From Parasphingopyxis sp. (GTDB lineage Bacteria > Pseudomonadota > Alphaproteobacteria > Sphingomonadales > Sphingomonadaceae), in assembly GCF_028279465.1 (NCBI RefSeq), contig NZ_JANQNS010000009.1, forward strand, positions 1-64,000: a DNA stretch of 64,000 nt, in the 5' to 3' direction. The notes below the pieces were generated by a model. The model was given only the letters and a program-made list of their open reading frames with translations. It ran no database searches and was not told where the DNA came from. A program made the translations under genes and the position numbers. Each line of letters starts with the position of its first letter. Position 1 is the first letter of the stretch. Below, piece by piece: positions 37,252 to 51,111 of this stretch.

Positions 37252-37284
37252 GTGCGGGCCTCCAATTTCTTAGGATCTGTCCGG

Positions 37285-38775
37285 CTAACCATCGGTATCT
37301 CGCTCTGTCCTGCGCTCGACCAGTGGGACCTCTGGCACGCTATCCTCCTCGGTCCAGCCGCCCCCGATGCCGCGATGTACGGCGAGCCGCGCCAGCGCGA
37401 CGTCCCGCCCGGCGGCCGAGAGTGACGAACGGACTTGATAGAGGTTACGCAGCGCGTCGAGATAATCGGTGAAGGCGGAGACGCCGCTTTGATATCGCTC
37501 CGCCTGCAGATTGGCCGAGGCATCGGCTTCCTGCAGCTGGGCGAAGAGCAGCTCGTAGCGCTGCCGTTGCTCCTCATAATCTTCGAGTGCCGCCGCGACT
37601 TCGCGATAGGCGTTGAGCACGGTTCGGGCATAGCTGGCGGTTTGCTGCGCATAACGCGCTTCGGCGACATCGATATTGGCGCGGATACGGCCGCCCTGGA
37701 ACAGGGGAGCAGTGAGGCTGGCGCCGAGGTTCAGCACCCAATTGTCGAGAATATCGAACGCACCCGAAACATCACCGCCCTGCGTACCGAGCGTGCCGGA
37801 CAGAGACAGCGAAGGGAACATCTCGGCCCGGCGCGCGCCCACCCGGAAGCGTGCGGCTTCGAAACGCTGGGCGGCGGCCGCGACATCGGGCCGCTGGACC
37901 AGCAAATCCGCGGGCAAGCCGGTCGGGATATCGGCGAATACGAGCTGGGGGGCGAGCGTATCGCCCATTTCCGCGCGCAGCGATCCGGCATGGCGGGCGA
38001 GCAGCACAGCCAAACGCCCCTCGGCATTGGCGAGCTGACTTTCGCGCTGCGGCAGCGCGGCCTGTGTGTTCCGATAGTCCTGGCGGATCTGGTAGAGTTC
38101 GAAGGAGGAGGCGAGGCCGCGATCATAGCGCCGCTGCGTGTTCTCCGTCCGATCGCGGAGGATATCGATCGTCGCGACCGACAGAGCGATCTGCGCGCGC
38201 AGGTCGACAATCTCGAAATAGGTCGAAATCGTATCGGCAAGCGCGCCGAGACGGGCCGTACGCAGATCGGCTTCGGCCGCGATCAGATCGGCGCGCGCGG
38301 CCCGCGCATCGTTGCGGGCCCGGCCCCAGAAATCGAGTTCATAGGCAAAGTTGAGCCCGGTCGTATAACTCTCATTCGTCAACCGCGTCGGGGCGGCGCC
38401 ACCGCCGATGGCGCCGAAATTCGTGCCGTCCAGCGGAGAGTCCGAATAGTTGGCGCCGGCAGACGCATTAAGGGTTGGCAGCCGGTCCGCGCCGGCGATC
38501 CGTGCCTGGGCCCTGGCTTCTTCGACCCGGGCGGCGGCTTCGGCGATATCGAGATTGGCGAGCAACGCTTCGTCGACAAGCCGATTAAGCGTCGGATCGT
38601 CAAAATCATGCCACCAGTTGAGCGATGCCGCTGCGGCGGACGCCGTGCCCTCGCCATAATCGGCGGGAAGCTCAGCGACCGGAGCCGGCAGGCGTTCGGG
38701 CGGCGAAAAGTCGGCACAACCGGCCAGCGATCCGGTGAGCGTCCCAAGAATGAAGATACGCGAACACGCTTTCAC
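37285..38775 (-). CDS. NodT/OprM-type outer-membrane efflux lipoprotein
   Basis: This 496-residue outer-membrane factor has a lipoprotein signal (about residues 1-20, lipobox LAGC) and two OEP repeats. The family motifs include NWWHDFDDPTLNRLVDEAL and LVQRPDVAAAAQRFEAA. It is predicted to form the TolC-like channel for the RND pump encoded downstream. The start is a GTG at 38775 that gives a proper lipoprotein signal. It is the first gene of the efflux operon and is divergent from a TetR gene. Confidence 0.92.
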   Translation of the reverse strand: MKACSRIFILGTLTGSLAGCADFSPPERLPAPVAELPADYGEGTASAAAASLNWWHDFDDPTLNRLVDEALLANLDIAEAAARVEEARAQARIAGADRLPTLNASAGANYSDSPLDGTNFGAIGGGAAPTRLTNESYTTGLNFAYELDFWGRARNDARAARADLIAAEADLRTARLGALADTISTYFEIVDLRAQIALSVATIDILRDRTENTQRRYDRGLASSFELYQIRQDYRNTQAALPQRESQLANAEGRLAVLLARHAGSLRAEMGDTLAPQLVFADIPTGLPADLLVQRPDVAAAAQRFEAARFRVGARRAEMFPSLSLSGTLGTQGGDVSGAFDILDNWVLNLGASLTAPLFQGGRIRANIDVAEARYAQQTASYARTVLNAYREVAAALEDYEEQRQRYELLFAQLQEADASANLQAERYQSGVSAFTDYLDALRNLYQVRSSLSAAGRDVALARLAVHRGIGGGWTEEDSVPEVPLVERRTERDTDG

Positions 38776-38850
38776 AGCCGGTTGCCTATGCCGCTATTGA
38801 AACTCAATGCCGCCCTGTGCCATATCCGATTTTGAACGGCAACGTTTAAA

Positions 38851-38862
38851 AACGCATGCGTT
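38851..38862. promoter_or_regulatory. 12-bp palindrome AACGCATGCGTT, candidate TetR operator
   Basis: The perfect palindrome lies between the divergent efflux operon (start 38775) and tetR, and overlaps the first possible ATG of tetR at 38856. TGAACG at 38833-38838 and CGTTCA at 38859-38864 add outer matching arms. The place fits control of the efflux operon and of tetR itself. Confidence 0.5.
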
Positions 38863-39539
38863 CACAAAACGGGGCCGCGTACAGGGGAAAATCGATCGGC
38901 GACATATCCAGCCCTGCGTCCGAAACAGCGATGCGGCCATCGTCGCTGCGCAAGATCGATGCCATCCTAAAGGCCGCGAAACAGGAGTTTTTCGCCCATG
39001 GCCTCGGCGACACCTCGATCGAGGCGATCGCGCGGCGGGCCGACGTCTCCAAGGTCACGATTTACAATCAGTTCGGCAGCAAGGACGCCTTGTTTTTCAA
39101 GGTGATCGACGCGGAATGTCAGCGGATGCGCGGGGTCATCATGGCAAAGCTGGCCGAGGATGCGTCGTTGCGTGAGACGCTGTGCGCGTTCGGCGAAGTG
39201 ATGTTGGCGATGATGACGAATCCCGAGACCGTGCGGTTCGAGCGGATTCTGGCAGCCGAGGCCGGCCGCGACCCCGAGATCGGGGAACGGTTCCTAGCGT
39301 CGGGCCCGCGTGTCATGCGCGGCACGCTGGCCGACATCCTTGCGGACGCGGCGAAACGCGGCGAGCTAGAGCTGGACGACCCCGATGTCGCTGCCGAGCA
39401 GCTCGGAGCGATGATCAAGGGCTTTCTCGCCGTCGAACTGCGTTTCGGCCAATCGCCGGATGTTTCGCCAGAGGCGCGGTCGGCGCGTATCGCGCGCGCC
39501 GTCGATACCTTTTTTCGCGCCTATGCGACGCGCGGCTAA
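38856..39539 (+). CDS. TetR/AcrR family regulator, likely of the RND efflux operon
   Basis: This regulator is 227 residues from the ATG at 38856, or 202 from the ATG at 38931. The helix-turn-helix has IEAIARRADVSKVTIYNQFGSKDALF, and the ligand-binding C-terminal domain has the AefR-like pattern GFLAVELRFG. Neither start has a good ribosome binding site. The second begins at the usual distance before the DNA-binding helix, and the first lies inside a palindrome, so 38931 may be the true start. It is divergent from the NodT/MFP/RND operon and is probably its repressor. Confidence 0.85.
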   Translation: MRSQNGAAYRGKSIGDISSPASETAMRPSSLRKIDAILKAAKQEFFAHGLGDTSIEAIARRADVSKVTIYNQFGSKDALFFKVIDAECQRMRGVIMAKLAEDASLRETLCAFGEVMLAMMTNPETVRFERILAAEAGRDPEIGERFLASGPRVMRGTLADILADAAKRGELELDDPDVAAEQLGAMIKGFLAVELRFGQSPDVSPEARSARIARAVDTFFRAYATRG

Positions 39540-39545
39540 CGCCGC

Positions 39546-41432
39546 TTATTCGGCGGCTTCGGCCATAACATGTTGATGCCAGACCGGCTGCTTGGGCGCC
39601 GGCAGGCCGGTCTCTTCCTCGCAGCGTTCGCGTAGTGTTTCGATGTCAGGGCCCGTATTGAACGGGCTGTCGCTCTCGCTCCGTGCCGCGCGCATCTCTT
39701 CGCGTAAGGTTTCCGTCGCGGCGGCATCGACCGCGCCCTTGTCGTCGGCGACCACGCCATAATCGCGCGCGCCCTCCGGCGTCACGAGGCCCTGGCGGAT
39801 TTCGAGGCCGACCAGTTCGGGATCGCGTCTCAGCGGATCGCCCCAGCCGCCGCCGCCCCAGGTGATGAAGTGCAAAAGGTCGCCTTCCCGGATTTCGATA
39901 TCGTCCTGCTTGTTGCCGACGACCTCGGTCGTGCCGTCGGCGCGTTCGATGACCTTGCGCGCCCGGCTGCCTGGTTCGCCGCCATTGACGCCCCAGGGAT
40001 AGGTGAACCAGCGATCGTCATGGATGGCGATGATGCCGGGTTCGAGGAAACGGTAGGTCATGTGAATGCCGTTGCCGCCGCGATTTTCGCCCGCGCCGCC
40101 GCTATCGGCCAGCGCCTCGTAACGCTCGATCCGCATCGGGAAATAGCGTTCGAGAAACTCGTTCGGAATGTTTGTAAAGCCCGGCCAGAGCGAATGGCCG
40201 TCGGGCCCATCGCCAAACGGTTTGCCCGGAATACCGCCGAAACCGATCTGGAACAGCTGGAACCACTCACCCTTCTTGTCGAAGCCCGAATACATGAGAT
40301 GCGGGCTTGAGGAGAAGCCGGCAGCGCAAAGGAATTCCGGCGCGCGCTGGCCGAGCAGGCCGCCGAGAATATCGAAGATCCGCCCCAGTGCGTGAGTCCG
40401 CCCGGCGAGCGCCGCCGGATATTTGGGTTTGAGCAGAGAACCTTCGGGGATGCGCACTTCGACGAGATCGTAAAAGCCGTCGTTGAACAGGATCTGCGGG
40501 TCGAAGACCATGATCATGTAGATGCCGAAGAACATCTTGAACATATTTTCGTTCAGGAGGAAATTGATCGAGCTCGGCGCCTGCGGATCGGTGCCCTCGA
40601 AATCGAGGATGACCTTATCGCCTTCCCGCCACATGGTGCAGCTGATCTTGTACGGCCCGTTGCCGACGCCATCGTCGCAGAGATAGTCGGTGAAACTCAC
40701 AGGCTCGACGCCGACCGACTGTTCGATCAGCGCCTTCATCGCGCGGTGATTGCGTTCGAGCAGCAGATCGGTCGCCGAGGCGAAGACATCCTCGCCGAAC
40801 CGCGCGCACATTTCGTCGACACGCCGCGCCGCGACCCGGCACGAGGCAATCAGCGCGTTGAGATCGGCCGCGCACCAATCGGGTTTGCGGCTCTGGTGCA
40901 GCACGAGCTTGACCAGATCCTCATTATATTCGCCCTTGCGGTAAATCTTCACCGGCGGGATGCGCACGCCTTCTTCGTACACGCTGCGGCTGTCGATCGG
41001 GATAGACCCGGCGACCTTGCCGCCGATATCGGACTGGTGTCCGAACATTGCCGTCCAAGCGACGAGACGGCCCTCGCGGAATACCGGGAGCAGCACCAGC
41101 CAGTCATTGTTGTGGCTAACCGCCCCCTCGCAGCTATAGGGATCGGAGAGGAAGATCATGTCGCCCTCCTCGATCTCGCCGTTAAAGCCTTTCAGAAAGC
41201 CGTCGATAAAACTGCCGAACTGTCCGACGATCATCTTGCCCGAGCGATCGGCGATCAGCGGGAAGGCGTCGCCCTGTTCGCGGATGCCGGGCGACATGGC
41301 GGTGCGCACGAGCGTCGCGTCCATCTCGATCCGCGCATTGCGCAACGCATTCTCGATAATATCGAGCGTAACAGGATCGACATCGGCCGTTTCGAAGGGC
41401 GCGGCGTTGGTTTCGAGTATCTGTGCGGGCAT
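39546..41432 (-). CDS. hyuB: Hydantoinase B/oxoprolinase-family subunit (HyuB)
   Basis: This 628-residue protein of the HyuB family carries EQGDAFPLIADRSGKMIVGQFGSF and the SDPYSCEGAVSHNNDW block with possible metal ligands, FGHQSDIGG, and the C-terminal GGGWGDPLRRD. With HyuA it forms ATP-dependent enzymes such as N-methylhydantoinase, caprolactamase, 5-oxoprolinase and acetone or acetophenone carboxylase. It starts in the stop codon of HyuA (TAATG). It is convergent with tetR (6 nt apart). The family alone does not fix the substrate; the neighbouring amidohydrolase and racemase-like genes favour a cyclic amide or hydantoin-like ring. Confidence 0.9.
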   Translation of the reverse strand: MPAQILETNAAPFETADVDPVTLDIIENALRNARIEMDATLVRTAMSPGIREQGDAFPLIADRSGKMIVGQFGSFIDGFLKGFNGEIEEGDMIFLSDPYSCEGAVSHNNDWLVLLPVFREGRLVAWTAMFGHQSDIGGKVAGSIPIDSRSVYEEGVRIPPVKIYRKGEYNEDLVKLVLHQSRKPDWCAADLNALIASCRVAARRVDEMCARFGEDVFASATDLLLERNHRAMKALIEQSVGVEPVSFTDYLCDDGVGNGPYKISCTMWREGDKVILDFEGTDPQAPSSINFLLNENMFKMFFGIYMIMVFDPQILFNDGFYDLVEVRIPEGSLLKPKYPAALAGRTHALGRIFDILGGLLGQRAPEFLCAAGFSSSPHLMYSGFDKKGEWFQLFQIGFGGIPGKPFGDGPDGHSLWPGFTNIPNEFLERYFPMRIERYEALADSGGAGENRGGNGIHMTYRFLEPGIIAIHDDRWFTYPWGVNGGEPGSRARKVIERADGTTEVVGNKQDDIEIREGDLLHFITWGGGGWGDPLRRDPELVGLEIRQGLVTPEGARDYGVVADDKGAVDAAATETLREEMRAARSESDSPFNTGPDIETLRERCEEETGLPAPKQPVWHQHVMAEAAE

Positions 41433-43486
41433 TAGTCGCGCTCCTCGGCCGGAGTGATCAGAAGATTACCATGGTCGTCGACCCGGGCTTCGTGATCGAG
41501 ATGAATCAGCGTGGTCGAATCCATTTCGATGACGATGGCGGGGCCCGGGATCACATCGCCGGCGTCGAGCTTGGCGCGGTCGTAAATGACTGCGGGCCGC
41601 ATCTCGCCATCCATGTAAAGCTCATGATCGCGCAGCTTGGCCTGAGACGGATCGCCATCGCCCTTGCCGATGGTTTCGGCCGTTACGTTCGCGGCCTTGC
41701 CGAGCGCGACGGCGCGAATGTTCACCAGCTCATGCGGCAGCGACAGGTTGAAGGTGAACAGCCGCTCATGCTCGGCATCGAACTCGCCGGTCAGCGCGGC
41801 GATAGAGAAGTCGGCTGCGTCGAGCGATAGCGGGATTTCGAAGGCCTGGCCCGAATAGCGCAGATCGACCTCGTAGCGCAGCTCGACATCGCCGGGATCG
41901 ACATCTTCGGCGACGAGTTCGTCTTTCACCTGCGCGCCGAGCTCGTCGAGCAGCGCCTTGAGTTCGGCATCGCTGGTATTCTTGGCAAGCGTATTGAAGC
42001 TGCGCTGCGTCTCCACGCGCTGCCGGGTCGTCGCATCGCCATAGGCACACAGCACACCGGGCGAGGGCGGAATGATGACCGGCCAGCTGTTCATGAGCTT
42101 GCCCATCGCATTGGCGTGAAGTGGCCCCGCGCCGCCAAAACCCATCAGCGCGAAGTCGCGCGGATCATAGCCTTGCTGAACCGAGACGAGCCGCAGCGCG
42201 CCGAACATGTTTTCGTTGACGATGTCGATTATACCTGCAGCCGCCTCCATCAGCCCGATACCGAGCGCATCGGCGATTGTCTGCACGGCGGCCTTGGCGC
42301 CTTCGCGATCCAGTTCGAAACTGCCGCCGAGCAGCGATTCCGGCAAATAGCCGAGCACGACATTCGCATCGGTCACGGTCGGCGCTTCGCCGCCCTTGCC
42401 ATAGGCGACCGGCCCCGGCACGGCGCCCGCGCTTTCCGGGCCGACGCGCAGTGCGCCGGTCAGTTCAGGCACGAAGGCGATGGAGCCGCCGCCCGCGCCC
42501 ACCGTTTTTACATCGATGGAAGAGGCCCGGACGTTGAGATCGCCGACCGAAGTTTCGCGCTGGAGACGGGCCTGACCGTTTTCGATCAGCGCGACATCCG
42601 TGGATGTGCCGCCCATGTCGAGCGTGAGAACATTTTCGATCCCGGCATTTTTGGCGACCCAGACCGCGCCGGCCACGCCGCCGGCCGGGCCGCTCATTAA
42701 GAGGTTCACCGGTGCCGCGCTGCTCTTCTCCGCCGACATCAGCCCGCCATCGGATCGCAACAGGCTGAGCTTCGCGTTCGAGCCCCAGGCATCGAGTTCG
42801 GTCTTCAGATTGCCGACATAGCGCGCGACGGTCGGCCGCACCGCGCTGTTCGCGACCGTCGTCAGCGCCCGCTCATATTCCTGCATCTCGGGCAGGATAT
42901 CGGCCGATACGGACACCGGCAGATCGGGAAAGACCTCGGCGCAGATTTCCGCGACGCGGCGCTCATGCGCGTCGTTCACATAGCTGTTCATGAGGCAGAT
43001 CGTCAGCGCTTCGATCTCTTCCTCGGCTTTCAGCGTTTCGAGCCGCTCACGCAGCGCCCCTTCATCGATCTGACGCACGACCGAACCGTCCGCGCCGATC
43101 CGTTCGGGCACTTCGATCGTACATTCGAGCGGCGCCATCGGCTGGGGCTTGGGCCATTGGATCCAGGCGGCAAGGCCGCCGGGGACGAGGCTGCGCGCGA
43201 TTTGCAGGATGTGCCGATAGCCCTCGGTGACGACGAGGCCGACCCGCGCGATCTTGCCTTCGAGGACCGCATTGGTGGCGACCGTCGTGCCGTGCAGGAA
43301 GAGCGAAAGCGATGCCGGATCGATGCCTTCGCGTTCGCAGAGCGTCTTCGCGCCGGTCACCACGGCTTCGGACGGATCGTGCGGGGTCGAGGGGAGCTTG
43401 TCGCGGACCGTATGGCCGCTGTCCTCGTCGATGATCAGCAGATCCGTGAAGGTGCCGCCGACATCGCAGCCCAGACGGTAACTCAT
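41432..43486 (-). CDS. hyuA: Hydantoinase A/oxoprolinase-family ATPase subunit (HyuA)
   Basis: This 684-residue protein has the actin-like ATPase fold of the HyuA family: DVGGTFTDLLIID at the start, HGTTVATNAVLEG (about 64-76), the MSGPAGGVAGA loop and TLDMGGTSTDVALI. The C-terminal domain ends VIEMDSTTLIHLDHEARVDDHGN. It provides ATP-driven activation for the HyuB partner. AGAGGGGA lies upstream of the ATG. The HMG-CoA lyase gene ends 24 nt upstream on the same strand, so lyase, HyuA and HyuB form one operon starting at the GntR-type site near 44421. Confidence 0.92.
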   Translation of the reverse strand: MSYRLGCDVGGTFTDLLIIDEDSGHTVRDKLPSTPHDPSEAVVTGAKTLCEREGIDPASLSLFLHGTTVATNAVLEGKIARVGLVVTEGYRHILQIARSLVPGGLAAWIQWPKPQPMAPLECTIEVPERIGADGSVVRQIDEGALRERLETLKAEEEIEALTICLMNSYVNDAHERRVAEICAEVFPDLPVSVSADILPEMQEYERALTTVANSAVRPTVARYVGNLKTELDAWGSNAKLSLLRSDGGLMSAEKSSAAPVNLLMSGPAGGVAGAVWVAKNAGIENVLTLDMGGTSTDVALIENGQARLQRETSVGDLNVRASSIDVKTVGAGGGSIAFVPELTGALRVGPESAGAVPGPVAYGKGGEAPTVTDANVVLGYLPESLLGGSFELDREGAKAAVQTIADALGIGLMEAAAGIIDIVNENMFGALRLVSVQQGYDPRDFALMGFGGAGPLHANAMGKLMNSWPVIIPPSPGVLCAYGDATTRQRVETQRSFNTLAKNTSDAELKALLDELGAQVKDELVAEDVDPGDVELRYEVDLRYSGQAFEIPLSLDAADFSIAALTGEFDAEHERLFTFNLSLPHELVNIRAVALGKAANVTAETIGKGDGDPSQAKLRDHELYMDGEMRPAVIYDRAKLDAGDVIPGPAIVIEMDSTTLIHLDHEARVDDHGNLLITPAEERD

Positions 43487-43510
43487 ATGACTGTATCCCC
43501 TCTTTGAATT

Positions 43511-44416
43511 TCAGGCGGCCCGCGCGACGAGCGACGGGAGTTCGCGGCCCATGACGGTCGCGAACCAGCGGTTGCAGGCGATGGCCCTGTCGAGATCGAC
43601 GCCGGTATCGAAGCCCGATTGCTCTAGCAGATAGACGACGTCTTCGGTCGCGATATTGCCGGTCGCGTTGGGCGCGAACGGACAGCCGCCCAGGCCGCCG
43701 AGCGAGGCGTCGATCGTTTCGATCCCGGCCTCGACCGCCGCCCAGGCATTGGCGATGCCGGTGTTGCGCGTGTCGTGCAGATGAGCGCGCAGCGGAATGG
43801 ACGCGGGTATCGCTTCGCGCACCGCGCCGGCGAGATCCGTCATCTGTTGCGGTACGCCGACGCCGATCGTGTCGGCGATTGCGATTTCCGCGGGTTCGGC
43901 TTCGGCCATCGCCTTTGCCATATCGACTACGCGGCTTTGCGGCACATCGCCTTCGAACGGGCAACCGAACGCCGCCGAGATCGTCACCTGCGCGATCATC
44001 CCTTCGGCCTTGGCGAAACGGATCATCTCCCGGTTCTCGGCGATACCTTCGGCGATCGTCTGGCCCTGATTCTTCTGCCCGAACGTGTCGCTGGCGACGA
44101 CGACGCAGCCCACTTCGTCGACGCCGCGTTTTCCGCCCTCGCGCGTCGCAAGCGTGCGCAGCACGCCGCGCTTGTTCAGGCACAGCCCGATATAGCTGGC
44201 GTCTGCATGGTCGGGCAGGCCGGCGATGACTTCCTCGGCATCGGCCATTTGCGGCACGCGTTTCGGATGGACGAAGCTCGCCACCTCGAAGCGGCGCAGG
44301 CCGGCTTCGTACATCTTCTCGATCAGCGCGATCTTGTCCGCCGTCGAGACGATCTCGGGCTCGTTCTGCAACCCGTCGCGCGGGCCGACTTCCACCAGGC
44401 GAACTTTTTTGGACAC
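43511..44416 (-). CDS. Hydroxymethylglutaryl-CoA lyase family protein
   Basis: This 301-residue TIM-barrel lyase has all expected catalytic features: VEVGPRDGLQNE near the N-terminus (metal and substrate Arg/Asp), RAHLHDTRNTG (metal histidines) and GGLGGCPFAPNATGN with the active-site cysteine. The family splits 3-hydroxy-3-methylglutaryl-CoA into acetyl-CoA and acetoacetate, or related 3-hydroxyacyl-CoA. The best start is a GTG at 44416. It has no ribosome binding site and lies 5 nt after the TTTGTATACAAA palindrome, so translation may be leaderless or begin at an upstream TTG. It is the first gene of the lyase-HyuA-HyuB operon. Confidence 0.88.
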   Translation of the reverse strand: MSKKVRLVEVGPRDGLQNEPEIVSTADKIALIEKMYEAGLRRFEVASFVHPKRVPQMADAEEVIAGLPDHADASYIGLCLNKRGVLRTLATREGGKRGVDEVGCVVVASDTFGQKNQGQTIAEGIAENREMIRFAKAEGMIAQVTISAAFGCPFEGDVPQSRVVDMAKAMAEAEPAEIAIADTIGVGVPQQMTDLAGAVREAIPASIPLRAHLHDTRNTGIANAWAAVEAGIETIDASLGGLGGCPFAPNATGNIATEDVVYLLEQSGFDTGVDLDRAIACNRWFATVMGRELPSLVARAA

Positions 44417-44420
44417 GTGT

Positions 44421-44432
44421 TTTGTATACAAA
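44421..44432. promoter_or_regulatory. GntR-type operator TTTGTATACAAA (site 1)
   Basis: A perfect 12-bp palindrome in the 65-bp gap between the divergent lyase operon (start 44416) and the CoA-transferase operon (start 44482). The inner TTGTATACAA and the following GGGT on the plus strand are repeated at 46941, next to the gntR gene. FCD-type GntR regulators commonly bind palindromes with a GTATAC-like core. Confidence 0.72.
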
Positions 44433-44481
44433 GCGGGTATCGGCTTGTATAGCCGCCAGATTGCTGAGGGAGATTTGGGGC

Positions 44482-45663
44482 ATGGCGAGCGGCGCACTGA
44501 ACGGGCTCAGACTGATCGAAATGGGCCAGTTGATCGCCGGTCCCTTTTGCGGGCAGCTGATGGCCGATCACGGCGCCGAAGTGATCAAGATCGAGCCGCC
44601 CAAGATCGGCGATGCGATGCGGGCGTGGGGGCAGGGCATCCCGCTCTGGTTTTCCGTTGTCGCGCGCAACAAGAAATCGATCACGCTCAATCTGCGCGAG
44701 CCGGAAGGGCAGGAAATCGTCAGGAAACTCGCGGCGAAGAGCGATTTCCTGCTGGAAAATTTCCGCCCCGGCACGCTGGAGAAATGGAATCTCGGCTGGG
44801 ACGAACTCCATGCGATCAACGAGGCGCTGATCATGATCCGCGTGTCTGGCTATGGCCAGACCGGGCCCTATTCTGCGCGCGCCGGTTATGGCGGCATCGG
44901 CGAGGCGATGGGCGGCATGCGTTACATTATCGGCGAGCCGGACCGGCCGCCCAGCCGGGCGGGCCTTTCCATCGGCGATTCGCTGGCCGCGACCTATGCG
45001 TGTCTCGGCGCGATGATGGCGCTCAATCACCGGCACAATACGGGCAAGGGGCAGGTCGTCGATTCGGCGATCTACGAAGCCGTACTGGCGATGATGGAAT
45101 CGACGGTGCCCGAATATACGGTGGCCAATCATATCCGCGAACGAACCGGATCGATCCTGCCCAAGGTCGCGCCGTCGAACGTTTATCCGACGAAGGATGG
45201 CAGCGTGCTGGTTGCCGGCAATCAGGACAGCGTCTGGAAACGCCTGGCGGCAATGATGGGCGTGCCGGAACTCGGCGACGATCCGCGCTATAACAGCCAT
45301 ATGGCGCGCGGCGAACGCCAGGCCGAGCTCGACGATATGATCGGCGGATGGACGAAAGAGCGAACCAGCGCCGAGGTGCTGGCGCTTTGCGAAGAGTATG
45401 GGGTGCCCGCCGGCAATATCTATCGCGCGCCAGAGATGCTGGACGATCCGCAATTCGCGGCGCGCGAGGCGCTGATCGCGGTCGATCATCCGAAACATGA
45501 GAATTTCGTCATGCAGAATGTCGCGCCCAAACTGTCCGAAACGCCGGGCAAGGTCGAATGGGTGGGACCTGCGCTCGGCGAGCATAACGAGCTCGTCTAT
45601 GGCGAGCTTTTGGGCATGGATTCGGCTACACGGGCGGGTCTCGAAGAGCGCGGAATCATCTGA
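44482..45663 (+). CDS. CaiB/BaiF CoA-transferase-like protein with Gly at the catalytic Asp position
   Basis: This 393-residue class III CoA-transferase family protein has FRPGTLEKWNLGWDEL and GYGQTGPYSARAGYGGIGEAMGG. The usual catalytic aspartate after the GY pair is G137, with E141 close by; subfamilies with GxIGEAxGG appear widespread to me, but I cannot state their chemistry. It may transfer CoA onto a dicarboxylate such as hydroxymethylglutarate, which would then feed the divergent lyase. The ATG at 44482 has GAGGGAG upstream. It is followed 3 nt later by the amidohydrolase gene. Confidence 0.87.
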   Translation: MASGALNGLRLIEMGQLIAGPFCGQLMADHGAEVIKIEPPKIGDAMRAWGQGIPLWFSVVARNKKSITLNLREPEGQEIVRKLAAKSDFLLENFRPGTLEKWNLGWDELHAINEALIMIRVSGYGQTGPYSARAGYGGIGEAMGGMRYIIGEPDRPPSRAGLSIGDSLAATYACLGAMMALNHRHNTGKGQVVDSAIYEAVLAMMESTVPEYTVANHIRERTGSILPKVAPSNVYPTKDGSVLVAGNQDSVWKRLAAMMGVPELGDDPRYNSHMARGERQAELDDMIGGWTKERTSAEVLALCEEYGVPAGNIYRAPEMLDDPQFAAREALIAVDHPKHENFVMQNVAPKLSETPGKVEWVGPALGEHNELVYGELLGMDSATRAGLEERGII

Positions 45664-45665
45664 CT

Positions 45666-46295
45666 ATGAGCGCGTTGGATGAGGATTATGCCAAGGCCGG
45701 ATTCAACAAGAGTCTGGGCTTTGGCAAACGGCCGGTGTTGCTCGTTATCGATTTCGTCATGGCCTATCTGGAGGCGGATTCGCCGCTCTATGCGAGTGTG
45801 GAAGCGGAACTCGCGGTCAATGAGCGGCTTGTCGCCGCGGCGCGCGATGCCGGTGTGCCGGTTATCTGGACGAACGTGGAGTACGAACCGGGCGGCGCGG
45901 ACGGTGGGCATTTCTACCGCAAGATCGCCGCGCTCACGGTTTTCGATCGTGGCAGCCCGTTCGGCGCTTTCCCGCCGAGCCTTCAGCCGCTGGCCGGGGA
46001 GCGGGTCGTCACCAAACAATATCCGAGCGCCTTTTTCGATACCGGCCTCGCGGAAACCTTACGCGGCATGGATGTCGATTGCTGCGTCATCACCGGGCTG
46101 TCGACCTCCGGCTGCGTCCGCGCCTCGGCGCTCGATGCGCTGCAACATGGTTTCATCCCGCTGGTCGTGCCCGAGGCGTGCGGCGACCGGGATCAGGCCG
46201 TCCACGACGCCAATATCTTCGATCTCAAGGCGAAATATGCCGATATGCTGAGCGTCGAGGAGGCGCTCGCCTATTTCTCGCGCGTCAGCGACTGA
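45666..46295 (+). CDS. Isochorismatase-fold amidohydrolase (N-carbamoylsarcosine/maleamate amidase-like)
   Basis: This 209-residue cysteine hydrolase has an intact D29-K117-C150 triad (VIDF, TKQYPSAFF, TSGC). The cis-peptide region and the STSGCVRASALDAL helix match N-carbamoylsarcosine amidohydrolase and maleamate amidohydrolase. It would release ammonia (and carbon dioxide from a carbamoyl group) from the product of ring opening by HyuA/HyuB. It is 3 nt after the CoA-transferase in one operon, and its 3' end overlaps the convergent gntR by 25 nt. Confidence 0.87.
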   Translation: MSALDEDYAKAGFNKSLGFGKRPVLLVIDFVMAYLEADSPLYASVEAELAVNERLVAAARDAGVPVIWTNVEYEPGGADGGHFYRKIAALTVFDRGSPFGAFPPSLQPLAGERVVTKQYPSAFFDTGLAETLRGMDVDCCVITGLSTSGCVRASALDALQHGFIPLVVPEACGDRDQAVHDANIFDLKAKYADMLSVEEALAYFSRVSD

Positions 46296-46912
46296 GCGGC
46301 CGCCTCGAACACATGGAAGGCGCGCCGGATATGGCTCGTCATGACAGAACGCGCCCATTCTGCATCGCCGCGTTCGATCGCGTCGACCAGCTCGCGATGT
46401 TCGGCGAGGCTGCGCTCGAACTGGCCGGCATCATAGTTGCGCGCCGTGCGATGGACGATCGGCTGGCTGACGAGCCGGGAGAGCATCGTTGCCAGCCGCT
46501 CCGAACCGGCCCCGGCCAGAACCTCGGCGTGAAAATCGGCATTATGATCGAGAAAAGCCTCCACATCGCGGGGGTCGCCCGCATCGTCGACGATCGCGCG
46601 GAGGCGCGCGGCCAGGGCAGGGCCGCCGATAGTCGCGGCGCGGGCCGCGACATGGCCTTCCAGCATGGCCCGCAGGGTGAATATCTCGTCGATATCCTCG
46701 ACCGACTGGTCGGCGACGAAGCTGCGCTGGCTGTCGCTGCGCGTGACGAAGAACTCGGCTTCGAGGCGTCGGAGTGCGTCGCGGATCGGCGTGCGCGATA
46801 CGCCGATACGCTCGGCCAATTCTTCTTCTTTCAGCTGCTCGCCGGCGGCCAGGACGCCGTCCAGGATCAGCGATCGGATGCCCATATAGGCTTTATCGGC
46901 TGCACTCGACAT
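46271..46912 (-). CDS. GntR family regulator with FCD domain
   Basis: This 213-residue regulator has an N-terminal winged helix (LKEEELAERIGVSRTPIRDALRRLEAE, about 27-53) and a C-terminal all-helical FCD domain with likely metal-binding histidines (DHNADFH and ERSLAEHRELVDAI, then SHIRRAF). FCD regulators sense organic acids. The ATG at 46912 gives the normal length; longer frames run through the operator. The TTGTATACAA site lies 29 nt upstream of its start and the same site lies at 44421, so it is predicted to control itself and both divergent units of the island. Confidence 0.9.
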   Translation of the reverse strand: MSSAADKAYMGIRSLILDGVLAAGEQLKEEELAERIGVSRTPIRDALRRLEAEFFVTRSDSQRSFVADQSVEDIDEIFTLRAMLEGHVAARAATIGGPALAARLRAIVDDAGDPRDVEAFLDHNADFHAEVLAGAGSERLATMLSRLVSQPIVHRTARNYDAGQFERSLAEHRELVDAIERGDAEWARSVMTSHIRRAFHVFEAAAQSLTREK

Positions 46913-46940
46913 CAATCGCCTGTTTCCCTTTCCGGAAAAA

Positions 46941-46950
46941 TTGTATACAA
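46941..46950. promoter_or_regulatory. GntR-type operator TTGTATACAA (site 2)
   Basis: A perfect 10-bp palindrome in the 100-bp gap between divergent gntR (start 46912) and the racemase-SnoaL-SnoaL-TonB receptor operon (start 47013). It matches site 1 at 44421-44432 in the core, and both are followed by A, two varying bases and GGGT on the plus strand. Confidence 0.72.
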
Positions 46951-47012
46951 AATGGGTCTGCCCGCCTAGACGATAAGCGAAATAGCGCAAAGCGGGACAC
47001 AAAGGGAGGCTT

Positions 47013-47747
47013 ATGCACCGGATCAAGGTCATCGTTCCGATACCGATGGACGAGGCGGGCGTGGCGAACCGCGCCGAGCAGCTGCCGCCGCCGCTCGTCC
47101 GCGATGGGTTCGAGCCGGTGTTCGAGGCCGTGAGCTGGGGCGCAGCGCTCGGCGACAGTTATCACGACATGCTGCTGATGGACTGGACGGTGTTCCAGGC
47201 CGGCATCAAGGCGGAAGAAGAGGGCTATGCCGGCGTGCTGATCGACACGGTCAGCGATTCCGGACTGCGCGCGCTCAGATCGCGCCTGTCGATCCCGGTC
47301 GCCGGGCCCGGCGAGAGCGCCTTTTACGCCGCCTGTATGATGGGCAAAAAGTTTTCCATTCTGACGATGTGGGACGAATGGTTCCCGCTCTACGAAAAGA
47401 CGATCACCGAATATGGCCTCGAAAAGCGTCTGGCCTCGATGCGCTCCATCGATACGCGCCCCGACGTCACCGAACTGCTGGCGGGCAAGGAAGAGGTGAT
47501 CTTCGGCAAGCTCGAAGAGGCCGCGACCCGCTGTATCGAGGAGGATCGCGCCGATGTGATCGTGCTCGGCTCGACGACGATGCACCAGTCGGCCGCGCAT
47601 CTCGATTCCGTGCTGCCAATCCCGGTGATCAACCCCGGCGTCGTCGCCTACAAGATGCTCGAAACGTTCGTCGAGCTTGGCCTGACGCATAGCAAGAAGG
47701 CTTTCCCCACGCCCGAAGTGCCCAAAGACGCGGAGATAACGGCATGA
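47013..47747 (+). CDS. Asp/Glu/hydantoin racemase-family protein lacking the usual cysteine pair
   Basis: This 244-residue protein has the family C-terminal signature INPGVVAYKMLETFVELGLTHSKKAF and the nucleotide-like loop VLGSTTMHQS. Racemases of this family use two cysteines; here those regions read DTVSDSG (78-84) and VLGSTTM (184-190) and the only cysteines, C108 and C174, are elsewhere. It may therefore be an isomerase, decarboxylase or lyase with another mechanism, or may bind ligand only. GGGAGG precedes the ATG. It overlaps the first SnoaL gene by 4 nt and heads a four-gene operon. Confidence 0.85.
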   Translation: MHRIKVIVPIPMDEAGVANRAEQLPPPLVRDGFEPVFEAVSWGAALGDSYHDMLLMDWTVFQAGIKAEEEGYAGVLIDTVSDSGLRALRSRLSIPVAGPGESAFYAACMMGKKFSILTMWDEWFPLYEKTITEYGLEKRLASMRSIDTRPDVTELLAGKEEVIFGKLEEAATRCIEEDRADVIVLGSTTMHQSAAHLDSVLPIPVINPGVVAYKMLETFVELGLTHSKKAFPTPEVPKDAEITA

Positions 47748-48133
47748 GCAATCCCTATCCCTATTATGTCGATATCGTCACGAAGCGCTATTTCGATGGC
47801 GTCGACAATAAGCGCATGGATCAGGTGCTCGACTGTTTCCATGAAGACGCCGTTCTCCACGAGATGACATCGGACACCAAGCATAACGGGATCGATGCGA
47901 TCCGGGCAATGTTCGAGGGGCTATTCTCGACGAACGGTCGCATCTGGCACGGCAATTTCGTCCATACGGCTGATCCCGAAACCAATTCCGTCTGTTCACA
48001 GTTCACCGTTGAGATCGAACCGAACGAGCTGGGCGAGGAACTGATCTACCAGAATTGCAACCGCTTCTATCTGAAGGGCGACAAGTTCCAGACCGTGTTC
48101 GTCTACATGAGCGGCGACAATCTGCTGAAATAG
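47744..48133 (+). CDS. SnoaL/NTF2-like protein (first of a tandem pair)
   Basis: This 129-residue protein has the cone-shaped alpha+beta fold typical of SnoaL, ketosteroid isomerase and scytalone dehydratase relatives: an N-terminal helix (VTKRYFDGVDNKRMDQVLDCFHEDAVLHE), then GIDAIRAMFEGLF and beta strands ending FQTVFVYMSGDN. Such proteins are small isomerases, cyclases, dehydratases or hydrolases. It starts within the racemase stop (ATGA) and is 13 nt before its paralogue; the two share the CFH and KFQ..FVYMSG patterns. The role is probably on the pathway intermediate. Confidence 0.82.
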   Translation: MSNPYPYYVDIVTKRYFDGVDNKRMDQVLDCFHEDAVLHEMTSDTKHNGIDAIRAMFEGLFSTNGRIWHGNFVHTADPETNSVCSQFTVEIEPNELGEELIYQNCNRFYLKGDKFQTVFVYMSGDNLLK

Positions 48134-48146
48134 GGGAGCGCAAGCG

Positions 48147-48545
48147 ATGCAATATCCGAGCACATTAAACCGCGACGAGCTGATCGAACTCGCGACGAAG
48201 ACCTATTTCGGCAATGTCGATGCGAAGAATATGGAAGCGACGCTCGACTGCTTTCACGATACAGCGCTCTTCACGATTCAGACCGACCATACGACCCATG
48301 AGGGCAAGGCCGGCATCCGCGAAATGTTCGAGACCTTCTTCGGCAGCTACGAAACCATCGTCCATCAGGATTTCAATTGCACGGTCGATGAGAAGAACGG
48401 CCGGATCGCGGCCTCGTTCGAGGCCGTCCTGACCGACGAAAATGGCGAGGTCACGCGGCTCTACAACACCAATTTCTGGCGCGTCCGGGGCGACAAGTTC
48501 CAGGAAGTGTACGTCTATATGAGCGGGGCCAACGTCCTCGTCTGA
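48147..48545 (+). CDS. SnoaL/NTF2-like protein (second of a tandem pair)
   Basis: This 132-residue paralogue of the preceding gene has the same layout: a helix with TKTYFGNVDAKNMEATLDCFHDTALF, then GKAGIREMFETFFGSY and strands ending KFQEVYVYMSGANVLV. The two have diverged a good deal between these motifs, so they may form a heteromer or act on different intermediates. A GGGGAGCG lies before its ATG. It is 34 nt before the TonB receptor. Confidence 0.82.
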   Translation: MQYPSTLNRDELIELATKTYFGNVDAKNMEATLDCFHDTALFTIQTDHTTHEGKAGIREMFETFFGSYETIVHQDFNCTVDEKNGRIAASFEAVLTDENGEVTRLYNTNFWRVRGDKFQEVYVYMSGANVLV

Positions 48546-48579
48546 CACGGCAAGAATAAGAAAGAACAGGGAGACTATC

Positions 48580-51111
48580 ATGTTCAATCGGATCGCACCG
48601 ACGCTGCTCGCAGCCACGGCGGGCATGGCCATCGCGACCTCCGCCCAGGCGCAGACCACGGGCGGCGGAGCAGGCGCAAGCAGCAGCACCGGCAATGCGC
48701 CGATCATCGTGACCGCGCGCCGCCAGGATGAAGCCTTGTCCGATGTCCCGGCGTCGATCACCGTGTTCACCGAAGACCAGCTCCAGACGCAGAATATCCG
48801 CCGCGCCGAGGACTTTATCGGCCTGACGCCGGGCGTGACGATCGTAACCAATACGGCGGAAGCCGGCGACAGCCAGATCAATATTCGCGGCATCAACGGG
48901 ACGCGGGACGCGGAAAGCTCCGTCGCGCTCGTCGTCGACGGTATCCTGCGCACCAATACGGCCGCGCTCAATCAGGACCAGGGCACGCTGCGACAGGTTG
49001 AAATCCTCAAAGGTCCGCAGGGCGCACTGTACGGCCGCAACGCCGCGGCCGGCGCCATCGTCATCACGACCGTCCGCCCGTCCGATGTGCTCGAGGGCAG
49101 CGTGCGGGGCAGCTATGGCAGCCAGGATACATGGGAGGCCAATGGCTATATCGCCGGGCCGCTGACTGACGGGCTCGGCTTCGTCCTGTCCGCTGACTAT
49201 CGGTCGACCGACGGATTTTTCGAGAACATCTTCCTCAATAACCGCAACGTCGTGGACGATCAGGAGGTGTGGAACGTCAATGGCCGTCTGATCGCCGAAC
49301 TTGGCCCGGATACGGAGCTCGATTTCAAGATCCGCTATGGCGAGCTGCGCGGGGCATCGATCAACTTCAACGCGGCCTTCCACCTGCCCAATTTCGCCGG
49401 CGCGAACCCGGCCTTTTTCGCCGATGTCGACGATCATGAGTATCGCTATTACAGCAATATCCGGCCCACCAACTCGCAGGATACGCTCGAAGCGTCGATC
49501 AAGCTCGAACATGATTTCGGCAATATGCAGCTCACGGCCTGGGCGCTCTATTCGAACATCGAAAACGCCCTGACCGCAGACGGCACGTCGGCCGACTTCG
49601 CGCGCTATATCTCAGCGGCGCTATCGCCCGTGCCGATCAGCGCGACATCGACAGCCGTCTCCGATGCCTGTTTTGCGAGCACGGCGGCGCTGACCGGCTT
49701 CCCGGTCAACCAGCCCGGCTTTATCGGCCAAGTACCGATCCCCTTCATCTTCGCGCCCGCAACCGGCTCGACCTTCGGCCCCTATTCGCCGACGACCTGT
49801 GACGGGACGCAATATCAGATCCGCGATCAGGAAGATTTCAGCGTCGAAGTCCGGCTTTCGTCGAGCGACGGTCCGGTCGATTGGCAGCTGGGTGCCTATT
49901 ATCTCCATATCGACCGGCAGGTCGGGGTGAGCCTTGGCGCCGATCTCGGCCAGGGCATTACCCGCCAGTTGTTCAACGCGCCCGGCAGCGCCAACCCGAC
50001 ATCGCAGCTCTTCCACGACGACTTCTCGACCGACGTGTTCGCCGCTTTCGGCTCGGTCGAAGCCGAAGTCACGAGTCGGCTGACTCTGGGCGCGGCGGTG
50101 CGCTACGATGTCGAGGAACGCAGCGTCGAAAATCTCGTGCCGAACGTGCTGGACCCGATCACGGGGGGGCCGATCAATCCGGGCCAGGCCTTCGGTCCGA
50201 TCCAGCCGCAGGATGCGAGCTTCGATCAGATCCAGCCGCGCCTCAGCCTTAACTATGCGCTGACCGACGAGATCAATTTCTACGCGACCTGGGGCATCGG
50301 CTTCAAATCGGGCGGGTTCAACAATCAGGGTTCCGCCGCCATTGTCGATCAGAATTTCAACCAGTTTCTCGGAACCAACATCCTGATCCAGGATCAATTC
50401 AACCGCGAGCGGTCGAGCGCGTTCGAAGTCGGTCTTCGTGGATCGTCGGGCCCGTGGACCTTCGATCTCGCCGGTTATTATACCGAGATCGACGATATGC
50501 AGTTCTTCGAATTCTTCGTCGGACCGTTCGGCCTGTTGCGCGTCGTCTCGAACATCGACGAAGTCGAAGTGCTCGGTCTCGAATTCAACACCAATGTCGA
50601 AATCGTGCCCGGCTGGGACGTCTTCGGTTCGTTCAACTGGACCGACTCCGAGATCAAGGCGAATAGCTCGCGGCCGAACACCGTAGGCAATGAATCGCCC
50701 TACACGCCCGACTATACGATCAATATCGGCAGTCAGGTCGTCGCGCCGATCCACCGCGATTTCGATCTGCTCGTGCGCGGCGATTACCGCATCGTCGGGC
50801 CGACCTGGTTCCATACTGTGCAGGATCAAGTGACGCCGACGCTCTTCTCGGGCCTGTTGCCGGGCTCGGCGCTGATGCTGCCGGCGTTCGTCGGCGATGC
50901 CGATTATAGTGCGGCGCAGCGCAACAGTTATTCGGTCTTCAACTTCCGTGCGGGTTTCCAAAGCGATCGCTGGAGCCTGATGTTCTTTGCCGAAAACCTG
51001 TTCGACGAGGAATATCCGGCCGAGGTAATTCCCGCGATCGAATTCGGCGGCTCGTTCATCTCGCCGGGACCGCGCCGCATCATCGGTGTTGAAGCTGGGT
51101 TTAATTTCTAG
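48580..51111 (+). CDS. TonB-dependent receptor of the GntR-controlled island
   Basis: This 843-residue outer-membrane receptor has a signal peptide (to AQAQ, about residue 25), a TonB-box-like APIIVTARRQ, a plug with SDVPASITVF and ILKGPQGALYGRNAAAGAIV, and a barrel ending GVEAGFNF. It is the last gene of the operon from 47013 and is followed by a strong terminator. Its place in the operon says that its cargo is the substrate of the island's enzymes. AGGGAG precedes the ATG. Confidence 0.93.
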   Translation: MFNRIAPTLLAATAGMAIATSAQAQTTGGGAGASSSTGNAPIIVTARRQDEALSDVPASITVFTEDQLQTQNIRRAEDFIGLTPGVTIVTNTAEAGDSQINIRGINGTRDAESSVALVVDGILRTNTAALNQDQGTLRQVEILKGPQGALYGRNAAAGAIVITTVRPSDVLEGSVRGSYGSQDTWEANGYIAGPLTDGLGFVLSADYRSTDGFFENIFLNNRNVVDDQEVWNVNGRLIAELGPDTELDFKIRYGELRGASINFNAAFHLPNFAGANPAFFADVDDHEYRYYSNIRPTNSQDTLEASIKLEHDFGNMQLTAWALYSNIENALTADGTSADFARYISAALSPVPISATSTAVSDACFASTAALTGFPVNQPGFIGQVPIPFIFAPATGSTFGPYSPTTCDGTQYQIRDQEDFSVEVRLSSSDGPVDWQLGAYYLHIDRQVGVSLGADLGQGITRQLFNAPGSANPTSQLFHDDFSTDVFAAFGSVEAEVTSRLTLGAAVRYDVEERSVENLVPNVLDPITGGPINPGQAFGPIQPQDASFDQIQPRLSLNYALTDEINFYATWGIGFKSGGFNNQGSAAIVDQNFNQFLGTNILIQDQFNRERSSAFEVGLRGSSGPWTFDLAGYYTEIDDMQFFEFFVGPFGLLRVVSNIDEVEVLGLEFNTNVEIVPGWDVFGSFNWTDSEIKANSSRPNTVGNESPYTPDYTINIGSQVVAPIHRDFDLLVRGDYRIVGPTWFHTVQDQVTPTLFSGLLPGSALMLPAFVGDADYSAAQRNSYSVFNFRAGFQSDRWSLMFFAENLFDEEYPAEVIPAIEFGGSFISPGPRRIIGVEAGFNF

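Follow-up and report, generated by a model that had tools for sequence, protein, structure and literature searches.

We analyzed a 64,000-nucleotide stretch of Parasphingopyxis sp. contig NZ_JANQNS010000009.1 (positions 1 to 64,000; the window), in which ten genes between positions 39546 and 51111 may form a GntR-controlled catabolic regulon for a nitrogen heterocycle. An initial annotation of this DNA had proposed nine structural genes in three transcription units plus a GntR regulator, and all ten genes were found, arranged with two copies of a palindrome as follows.

39546..41432, minus strand: HyuB, predicted subunit B of an ATP-dependent ring-opening amidohydrolase (Pfam Hydantoinase_B, 489 bits)
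41432..43486, minus strand: HyuA, predicted subunit A of the same enzyme (Pfam Hydantoinase_A)
43511..44416, minus strand: 3-hydroxy-3-methylglutaryl (HMG)-coenzyme A (CoA)-lyase-family enzyme, HMGL (Pfam HMGL-like); proposed retro-Claisen lyase for a substituted malyl-CoA
44422-44431: palindrome TTGTATACAA, copy 1, in the HMGL/CaiB divergent promoter; proposed GntR operator
44482..45663, plus strand: family III (CaiB-type) CoA-transferase (CoA_transf_3); proposed dicarboxylate CoA-transferase
45666..46295, plus strand: isochorismatase-family amidase (domain search, PDB matches, D29/K117/C150/R175); proposed half-amide hydrolase
46271..46912, minus strand: GntR/FCD transcriptional regulator (GntR and FCD domains)
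46941-46950: palindrome TTGTATACAA, copy 2, in the GntR/racemase-like divergent promoter; proposed operator
47013..47747, plus strand: Asp/Glu/hydantoin-racemase-fold protein with both catalytic cysteines replaced (T79, S187; alignments and model)
47744..48133, plus strand: SnoaL/NTF2-like protein 1 (SnoaL_2; alignable with SnoaL 2)
48147..48545, plus strand: SnoaL/NTF2-like protein 2 (SnoaL_2; the SnoaL kept in Pseudomonas/Rhodanobacter-type clusters)
48580..51111, plus strand: TonB-dependent outer-membrane receptor (Plug and TonB_dep_Rec_b-barrel)

The start codons of HMGL (GTG, 44416) and GntR (ATG, 46912) were chosen in this analysis. The HyuA and HyuB domains are on adjacent genes, and no further gene lies within the HyuB-HyuA-HMGL unit.

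This gene set is real and conserved. Among the named loci, 44 span at least 19 kb and contain a GntR orthologue (at least 40% identity; other genes were scored at per-gene identity thresholds set in the script). Of these 44, 40 have all ten genes, and every one has a receptor relative of at least 40% identity. Three exceptions lack one gene each (HMGL in L107, SnoaL 1 in L125, and the amidase in L127), and the fourth, L090, runs off its stretch, with its remaining genes just beyond. Gene order was less conserved than gene content. The 80 named loci (L) represent the top of the score list from a single scan with a single protein, in which close relatives are over-represented, and they overlap in species with a second set (G), so that counts of the two sets were not added; only the neighbour survey pools both (106 loci). 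In that survey, the most frequent other gene family occurred in 15 of the 106 loci. Neighbour genes were called by a custom script that missed or mis-stranded some of them, and labels that have no profile, PDB, or tblastn support were read by eye from the sequence; the main gammaproteobacterial and G299 loci were re-checked by tblastn, and ten proteins by Pfam. Among 298 genomes of the family, 27, including that of the window, encode a racemase-like protein that is at least 71% identical. The conserved synteny outside the strain supports the earlier suggestion that a single catabolic system lies beside the GntR gene. That suggestion also held that no described pathway has this exact set, and we found no description of such a gene set in the open-licence PubMed Central (PMC) papers searched.

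Both divergent promoters in the set contain the ten-base palindrome TTGTATACAA, as had been noticed previously together with the position of the GntR gene beside one copy, and the 3,306,170 bases of the genome analysed contain no further exact match. Copy 1 precedes the CoA-transferase start by 50 bases and the chosen HMGL start by 5 bases, and copy 2 precedes the chosen GntR start by 28 bases and the racemase-like start by 62 bases. From the composition of the window, 0.18 to 0.55 exact copies were expected, and 2 of 100 shuffles of the window reached two copies when one mismatch was allowed. The copy number itself is ordinary, because a control pattern, TTGTATACAA read backwards, likewise occurs twice in the genome; the evidence is the placement of the palindrome in the two divergent promoters of the set.

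This placement is retained in most related loci that keep GntR. When up to one mismatch is allowed, 51 of the 58 named loci with GntR carry the palindrome in the 250 bases preceding the racemase-like gene (40 exact), and 47 of the 53 named GntR loci whose HMGL is at least 50% identical carry it in the 350 bases preceding HMGL (32 exact). By contrast, it was found upstream of the racemase-like gene, with one mismatch, in 1 of 21 loci without GntR (one further locus was too short to score), although these loci are largely from other lineages, so that relatedness is mixed into the comparison. Seven GntR loci miss the palindrome at the racemase-like gene. In three of them (L077, L080, and L092), the receptor sits between GntR and the racemase-like gene, and an exact motif adjoins GntR. 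L072 also misses the palindrome at HMGL, L095 and L139 have a one-mismatch copy at HMGL, and L081 has no scored HMGL. Most of the 77 exact sites in 1.07 Mb have T or A on both flanks. The palindrome thus tracks the presence of GntR, as expected of a GntR/FCD regulon, and comparison of genomes supports the regulatory part of the finding well. The GntR protein would bind both TTGTATACAA sites, presumably as a repressor.

HyuA and HyuB resemble hydrolases more than carboxylases. In the PDB, HyuA matched N-methylhydantoinase at 472 bits, acetophenone carboxylase at 275 bits, and acetone carboxylase at 228 bits, and the corresponding scores of HyuB were 239, 131, and 50 bits. The best NCBIfam model of HyuA was caprolactamase alpha (522 bits, below the cut-off of 1000). 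Of the two activities that the initial annotation had allowed, ATP-dependent ring opening is therefore supported by these scores as the predicted function, and carboxylation was set aside. The amidase aligned with N-carbamoylsarcosine amidohydrolase (138 bits) and with 3ot4/3uao (125 bits) and 4l07 (106 bits), which we take to be maleamate amidases. D29, K117, and C150, which correspond to the Asp-Lys-Cys catalytic triad of the N-carbamoylsarcosine/maleamate amidase group, and R175, the conserved Arg in GDR, are all in place.

T79 and S187 of the racemase-fold protein align with two cysteines of the Klebsiella allantoin racemase that are presumably its catalytic residues. Thr/Ser and Ser occupy these positions in 35 aligned sequences, the cysteines are likewise replaced in a further alignment of 26 sequences, and a clade of racemase-like proteins with 46-52% identity has Ser at both positions. 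The AlphaFold model of the protein (predicted local distance difference test score, pLDDT, 92.4) had allantoin racemase as its best fold match (template-modelling score, TM, 0.87), and the 'atypical' fungal family member OpaE appeared further down the same search. Replacement of both cysteines implies that this protein is not a standard two-base racemase. In a sister clade (L040, L043, and L044; racemase-like proteins 46-50% identical), the gene lies among Rieske oxygenases, an intradiol dioxygenase, and a muconate-cycloisomerase-family protein, with formamidase-family and SnoaL_4 proteins nearby; these families were tested in L043, and the others were assigned by eye. The racemase-like proteins of this clade likewise carry Ser in place of each cysteine.

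Residues D25, H51, H73, D81, N107, and N109 are invariant over 34 SnoaL 1 and SnoaL 2 sequences. The SnoaL 2 model (pLDDT 96.5) is a generic NTF2 cone, and its fold search was unspecific, with 728 matches at E ≤0.001, of which the best 50 were all generic. SnoaL proteins have the polyketide-cyclase fold, and part of PMC9304392 describes a 'polyketide cyclase' that opens trihydroxypyridine between C and N in nicotinate breakdown by Rhodococcus and Arthrobacter. By analogy with this precedent, it is a reasonable guess that the SnoaL proteins open a ring or deaminate.

The best NCBIfam model of CaiB was succinate-glutarate CoA-transferase (288 bits, below the cut-off of 750). The window HMGL and the other lyases aligned with it, 17 proteins altogether, all retain the RD, HxH, and GGCP motifs, which have functional roles in HMG-CoA lyase. 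At the position that follows FV in the FV.PK motif, the window HMGL carries His, as do 6 of 8 alphaproteobacterial cluster proteins aligned (the exceptions being Asn in L078 and FINSR in L085); 6 of 6 gammaproteobacterial cluster lyases carry Ser, and the lyase of the second module described below carries Pro. The gene clusters of relatives suggest that the substrate of HMGL may be other than HMG-CoA.

LeuC and LeuD genes are part of the clusters of Pseudomonas composti (L137, L167), Rhodanobacter thiooxydans (L142, L168), and a Dokdonella genome (L135, L175), and the same type of cluster occurs in Alloalcanivorax marinus (L171) and two further genomes (L180; L182, L183). These Pseudomonas/Rhodanobacter-type clusters encode the racemase-like protein, SnoaL 2, CaiB, HMGL, HyuA, HyuB, the amidase, LeuC, and LeuD, together with a YCF48/MMPL/DUF1302/DUF1329 set. 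A PrpR-like activator gene follows where the stretch reaches that far; the P. composti regulator scored 453 bits against the PrpR model (below the cut-off of 499) and has relatives in six other loci. LeuC and LeuD of P. composti scored above the leuC/leuD model cut-offs. Of 17 non-sphingomonad genomes that were searched for LeuC as well as HyuA, 11 have the two genes about 3 kb apart, as do two additional genomes; several of these genomes are Pseudomonas, so that they do not count as independent cases. CaiB and HMGL of this cluster type are only 30-31% and 38-42% identical to those of the window, which suggests that the same enzyme types were recruited separately. The CaiB of Luminiphilus and Halioglobus shares 42% identity with that of the window, and their HMGL shares 51-54% identity with that of P. 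composti. The P. composti cluster also encodes two large flavoproteins (L137:11303-15618), whose best models are mycofactocin OYE 2, BaiCD, and then bilirubin reductase, all below cut-off; Halopseudomonas (L136, L178) likewise has two, and relatives of the P. composti proteins occur in 11 of the 106 loci surveyed.

Other relatives combine HyuAB with different lyases. In the alphaproteobacterium G299, HyuA-HyuB is followed by an isocitrate-lyase/PEP-mutase-family lyase, LeuC, LeuD, and the amidase. The best PDB matches of this lyase were carboxyvinyl-carboxyphosphonate (Ccp) mutase, petal death protein, 2,3-dimethylmalate lyase, oxaloacetate acetylhydrolase, and methylisocitrate lyase, the last of which was also its best NCBIfam model, below cut-off. 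No CaiB or HMGL match was detected by tblastn in the 20-kb HyuAB stretch or the racemase-like locus of G299, and CaiB was not searched genome-wide. A second HyuAB locus of Eilatimonas milleporae (L187:3326-17740) encodes an isochorismatase-family protein, CaiB, a CitE-type lyase, and a mesaconyl-CoA-hydratase-like protein, and a Porticoccaceae genome (L188:5177-14879) has HyuAB, an isochorismatase-family protein, CaiB, a CitE-type lyase, and an MmgE/PrpD protein. The common denominator of these clusters would be that an amide ring is opened, the amide is removed, and a substituted malate is formed by hydration and cleaved. In Porphyrobacter/Erythrobacter loci, LeuC/LeuD genes are also found a few kb past the receptor. 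We take these to be the housekeeping pair, because the LeuC near the cluster is the only close LeuC in the genome of L108, and because the same LeuC-LeuD-oxidoreductase order is found on another contig of the window genome (L190).

The window cluster does not contain the LeuCD-type hydro-lyase found in the Pseudomonas/Rhodanobacter-type clusters and G299, and a second module of the same genome carries a second LeuCD set. This module (contig C10, ~36.8-45.8 kb; L189:6782-15843) encodes CaiB, HMGL, LeuD, LeuC, two PuuE-like proteins, and an alpha/beta-hydrolase-like protein (labelled by eye). The one PuuE-like protein searched had PuuE allantoinase as its best match; the part of PMC9304392 consulted describes cyclic imide hydrolases as relatives of PuuE-type enzymes. 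A module of this type adjoins a window-type cluster directly in G153, G278, and G243; in G278, a further isochorismatase-family protein accompanies it. Among the 298 family genomes, a PuuE-type match (E below 1e-80) was found in 54, of which 16 also encode the racemase-like protein, compared with 4.9 expected, although relatedness of the genomes inflates this co-occurrence; 38 genomes have the PuuE type alone, and 11 have the racemase-like protein alone.

LeuCD and the dimethylmalate/methylisocitrate-lyase families act on substituted maleates and malates. Their genes stand beside HyuAB and the amidase in relatives, which makes a citramalate-like acid a more likely intermediate than HMG. The initial annotation, which had the carbon skeleton leave as an HMG-like acid through acetyl-CoA and acetoacetate, is therefore probably wrong on this point, whereas its proposed substrate class, a cyclic amide, imide, or hydantoin-like ring, is supported. 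The chemistry revised from HMG to a substituted malate is plausible in outline. Gene content, conservation, motif tracking, cysteine loss, and the content differences in relatives are read directly from the sequence; each chemical step, the repressor role, and the substrate are inferred. In the model that we tentatively prefer, at somewhat less than an even chance, the regulon degrades an N-heterocycle, which its enzymes would process as a five-membered cyclic imide, or as a lactam converted to one. The TonB receptor would import the compound, whose ring would be prepared or opened by the racemase-fold protein that lacks the cysteines and by both SnoaL-like proteins. HyuAB would convert the imide to a half-amide at the expense of ATP, and the amidase would release ammonia from the half-amide to give a substituted maleate. 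A hydro-lyase would then add water to form a substituted malate with a tertiary alcohol; this enzyme would be LeuCD in Pseudomonas/Rhodanobacter-type clusters, and in the window organism it would probably be a LeuCD encoded outside the cluster, or else a SnoaL protein. Finally, the CaiB-type enzyme would form the CoA ester, which HMGL would cleave to a 2-oxoacid and an acyl-CoA.

Several observations weigh against this cyclic-imide model. The best single PDB matches of HyuAB and the amidase are enzymes of the hydantoin pathway. The sphingomonad clusters hold no LeuCD for the hydration step, and LeuCD could serve another step in the clusters that have it. A substitution of LeuCD by SnoaL 1 had seemed possible, since Pseudomonas, Rhodanobacter, and Alloalcanivorax have LeuCD and one SnoaL, and Luminiphilus and Halioglobus have two SnoaL and no LeuCD adjoining HyuAB; strict replacement was set aside, because G299 has both SnoaL 1 and LeuC, which implies that SnoaL 1 is no simple LeuCD substitute. 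An HMGL-family gene on another G299 contig, 39% identical to that of P. composti, means that the alkylmalate-type lyase of G299 need not be a replacement and makes the cyclic-imide model slightly less likely; a clean swap for CaiB/HMGL was therefore set aside and is kept as a pointer. G310 has racemase-like and SnoaL genes and no HyuA match. The gammaproteobacterial cluster lyases retain the common FVSPK/R motif, and the window HMGL passes the NCBIfam HMG-CoA lyase subfamily model PRK05692 (303 bits compared with a cut-off of 246).

The PRK05692 score favors a pathway in which the ring yields 3-hydroxy-3-methylglutarate or a close homologue, CaiB activates it, and a true HMG-CoA lyase gives acetyl-CoA and acetoacetate. 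The best family of CaiB fits this end point, since the human succinate-glutarate CoA-transferase-family enzyme also uses HMG. We nevertheless consider this pathway unlikely, because LeuCD and the dimethylmalate/methylisocitrate-lyase-type enzyme in relatives point to maleate/malate chemistry, and because the FV.PK residue differs between the alphaproteobacterial and gammaproteobacterial lyases. There is likewise a small chance of a hydantoin/N-methylhydantoin-type pathway, in which a racemase, HyuAB, and an N-carbamoyl amidase act in turn and CaiB and HMGL dispose of the carbon skeleton of the amino acid. The best PDB matches of HyuA and HyuB (N-methylhydantoinase), the amidase (N-carbamoylsarcosine amidohydrolase), and the racemase-fold protein (hydantoin/allantoin racemase) are all consistent with it. 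However, both racemase cysteines are replaced in the two alignments, no aminotransferase or amino-acid oxidase was recognised by eye among the recurrent neighbour families listed, and LeuCD and the alkylmalate-type lyase would be left unexplained.

Two further readings assign HyuAB a different substrate or reaction. HyuAB-like and CaiB-type enzymes operate in the anaerobic iaa pathway, and in an analogous oxindole/indole-acetate-type lactam pathway HyuAB would open a benzo-fused lactam, CaiB would activate an aryl-malate, and HMGL would produce acetyl-CoA and an aryl-2-oxoacid. The distant racemase-like relative in L043 lies among Rieske oxygenases, an intradiol dioxygenase, and muconate-cycloisomerase- and formamidase-family proteins, which speaks for this reading. 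It seems quite improbable, because no oxygenase or aromatic pathway gene was recognised by eye among the recurrent neighbour families listed and because the amidase and LeuCD would not be needed. The iaa locus is named in PMC9613470; the words racemase and lyase are missing from the main text of that paper, and the indole-acetate iad locus was set aside as a described counterpart. The least expected reading makes HyuAB a biotin-independent acetone/acetophenone-type carboxylase, whose product would be CoA-activated and then cleaved. HyuAB belongs to the same superfamily and has weaker matches to both carboxylases, and the initial annotation had raised the idea. Acetone and acetophenone carboxylases have further subunits beside HyuA and HyuB, but no such subunit is present in the HyuB-HyuA-HMGL unit or was recognised by eye among the recurrent neighbour families listed. 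The amidase would also have no role, and, together with the scores given above, this makes a carboxylase very improbable.

Within the cyclic-imide model, the substrate is probably a substituted cyclic imide or lactam, and the TonB- or MMPL-type uptake suggests that it is probably bulky or hydrophobic. One candidate, to which we give a slim chance, is that the regulon degrades mono- and dipyrrolic remnants of chlorophyll, bacteriochlorophyll, and heme, in the form of 3-methyl-4-alkyl-maleimides (methyl-ethyl-maleimide, methyl-vinyl-maleimide, or hematinic acid) or oxidised pyrrolinones that yield them. Release of the maleimide would fall to SnoaL and the racemase-fold protein without cysteines, HyuAB and the amidase would convert it to a dialkylmaleate, and hydration, CoA transfer, and retro-Claisen cleavage would give pyruvate and butyryl-, crotonyl-, or glutaryl-CoA. 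None of the pointers to this candidate is decisive. The P. composti flavoproteins have bilirubin reductase as their third-best, below-cut-off model, and uptake of the TonB or MMPL/DUF1302/DUF1329 type would suit bulky hydrophobic compounds. Two photosynthetic reaction-centre genes (G000:C8:104371-106034) imply that the window organism is probably an aerobic anoxygenic phototroph. Such genes occur in 15 of the 27 cluster carriers in the family, compared with 4.9 expected, and 8 of the 12 genera with a carrier include a reaction-centre genome (not always the same genome), compared with 3.4 expected; this association is clumped by genus and confounded by lineage, the Pseudomonas-type carriers are not known to be phototrophs, and we keep it only as a pointer. 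Maleimides of this type have been reported from leaves and, as cited there, from lake sediments, and synthesis and degradation of chlorophyll run at a scale of 10^12 kg per year (PMC7318184, consulted in part). We found no paper on bacterial use of these maleimides among the open-licence PMC papers searched. If the substrate were such a maleimide, the regulon would show which organisms recycle the final fragments of chlorophyll and heme.

Upstream of the set, at 35896-39539, are efflux-operon-like genes for a membrane-fusion (HlyD) protein and an outer-membrane efflux protein, with a divergent TetR-family gene.

Under the cyclic-imide model, bacteria would have a widely kept, regulated pathway that feeds cyclic imides (or lactams) into central metabolism via cleavage of a substituted malate, in a set that includes a natural racemase-fold protein without catalytic cysteines. 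Among known systems, the best sequence matches are to N-methylhydantoin (creatinine) degradation, in which an ATP-dependent HyuAB-type hydrolase is followed by an isochorismatase-family N-carbamoyl amidase and which stops at an amino acid and involves no CoA-dependent lyase. Unlike that pathway, the window set has no two-cysteine racemase; CaiB, HMGL, the SnoaL pair, and the cysteine-less racemase-fold protein are conserved with HyuAB and the amidase, and relatives add LeuCD or the alkylmalate-type lyase. The caprolactamase CapAB belongs to the same HyuA/HyuB family and provides the best, below-cut-off NCBIfam models of the window HyuAB, but it converts a six-carbon lactam to an amino acid, and the window set adds an amidase and a lyase. 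The maleamate branch of nicotinate/nicotine degradation (NicF/Ami, NicE/Iso) shares an isochorismatase-family hydrolase of the 3uao/4l07 type and a racemase-superfamily protein; in the window, the latter is without the cysteines, and HyuAB, CaiB, and HMGL are added. The dimethylmaleate end of nicotinate fermentation (DmdAB, dimethylmalate lyase) is similar to the LeuCD-type hydro-lyase and alkylmalate-type lyase in G299, but there the maleate comes from methylene-glutarate, and here it would come from an amide, with a CoA route in most members. Finally, HxnM and then HxnN of Aspergillus nidulans convert a cyclic imide to a half-amide and then to the acid, as described in part of PMC9304392, and the proposed regulon would follow the same logic, whereas the fungal route uses other enzyme families and a six-membered ring and ends at 2-hydroxyglutarate.

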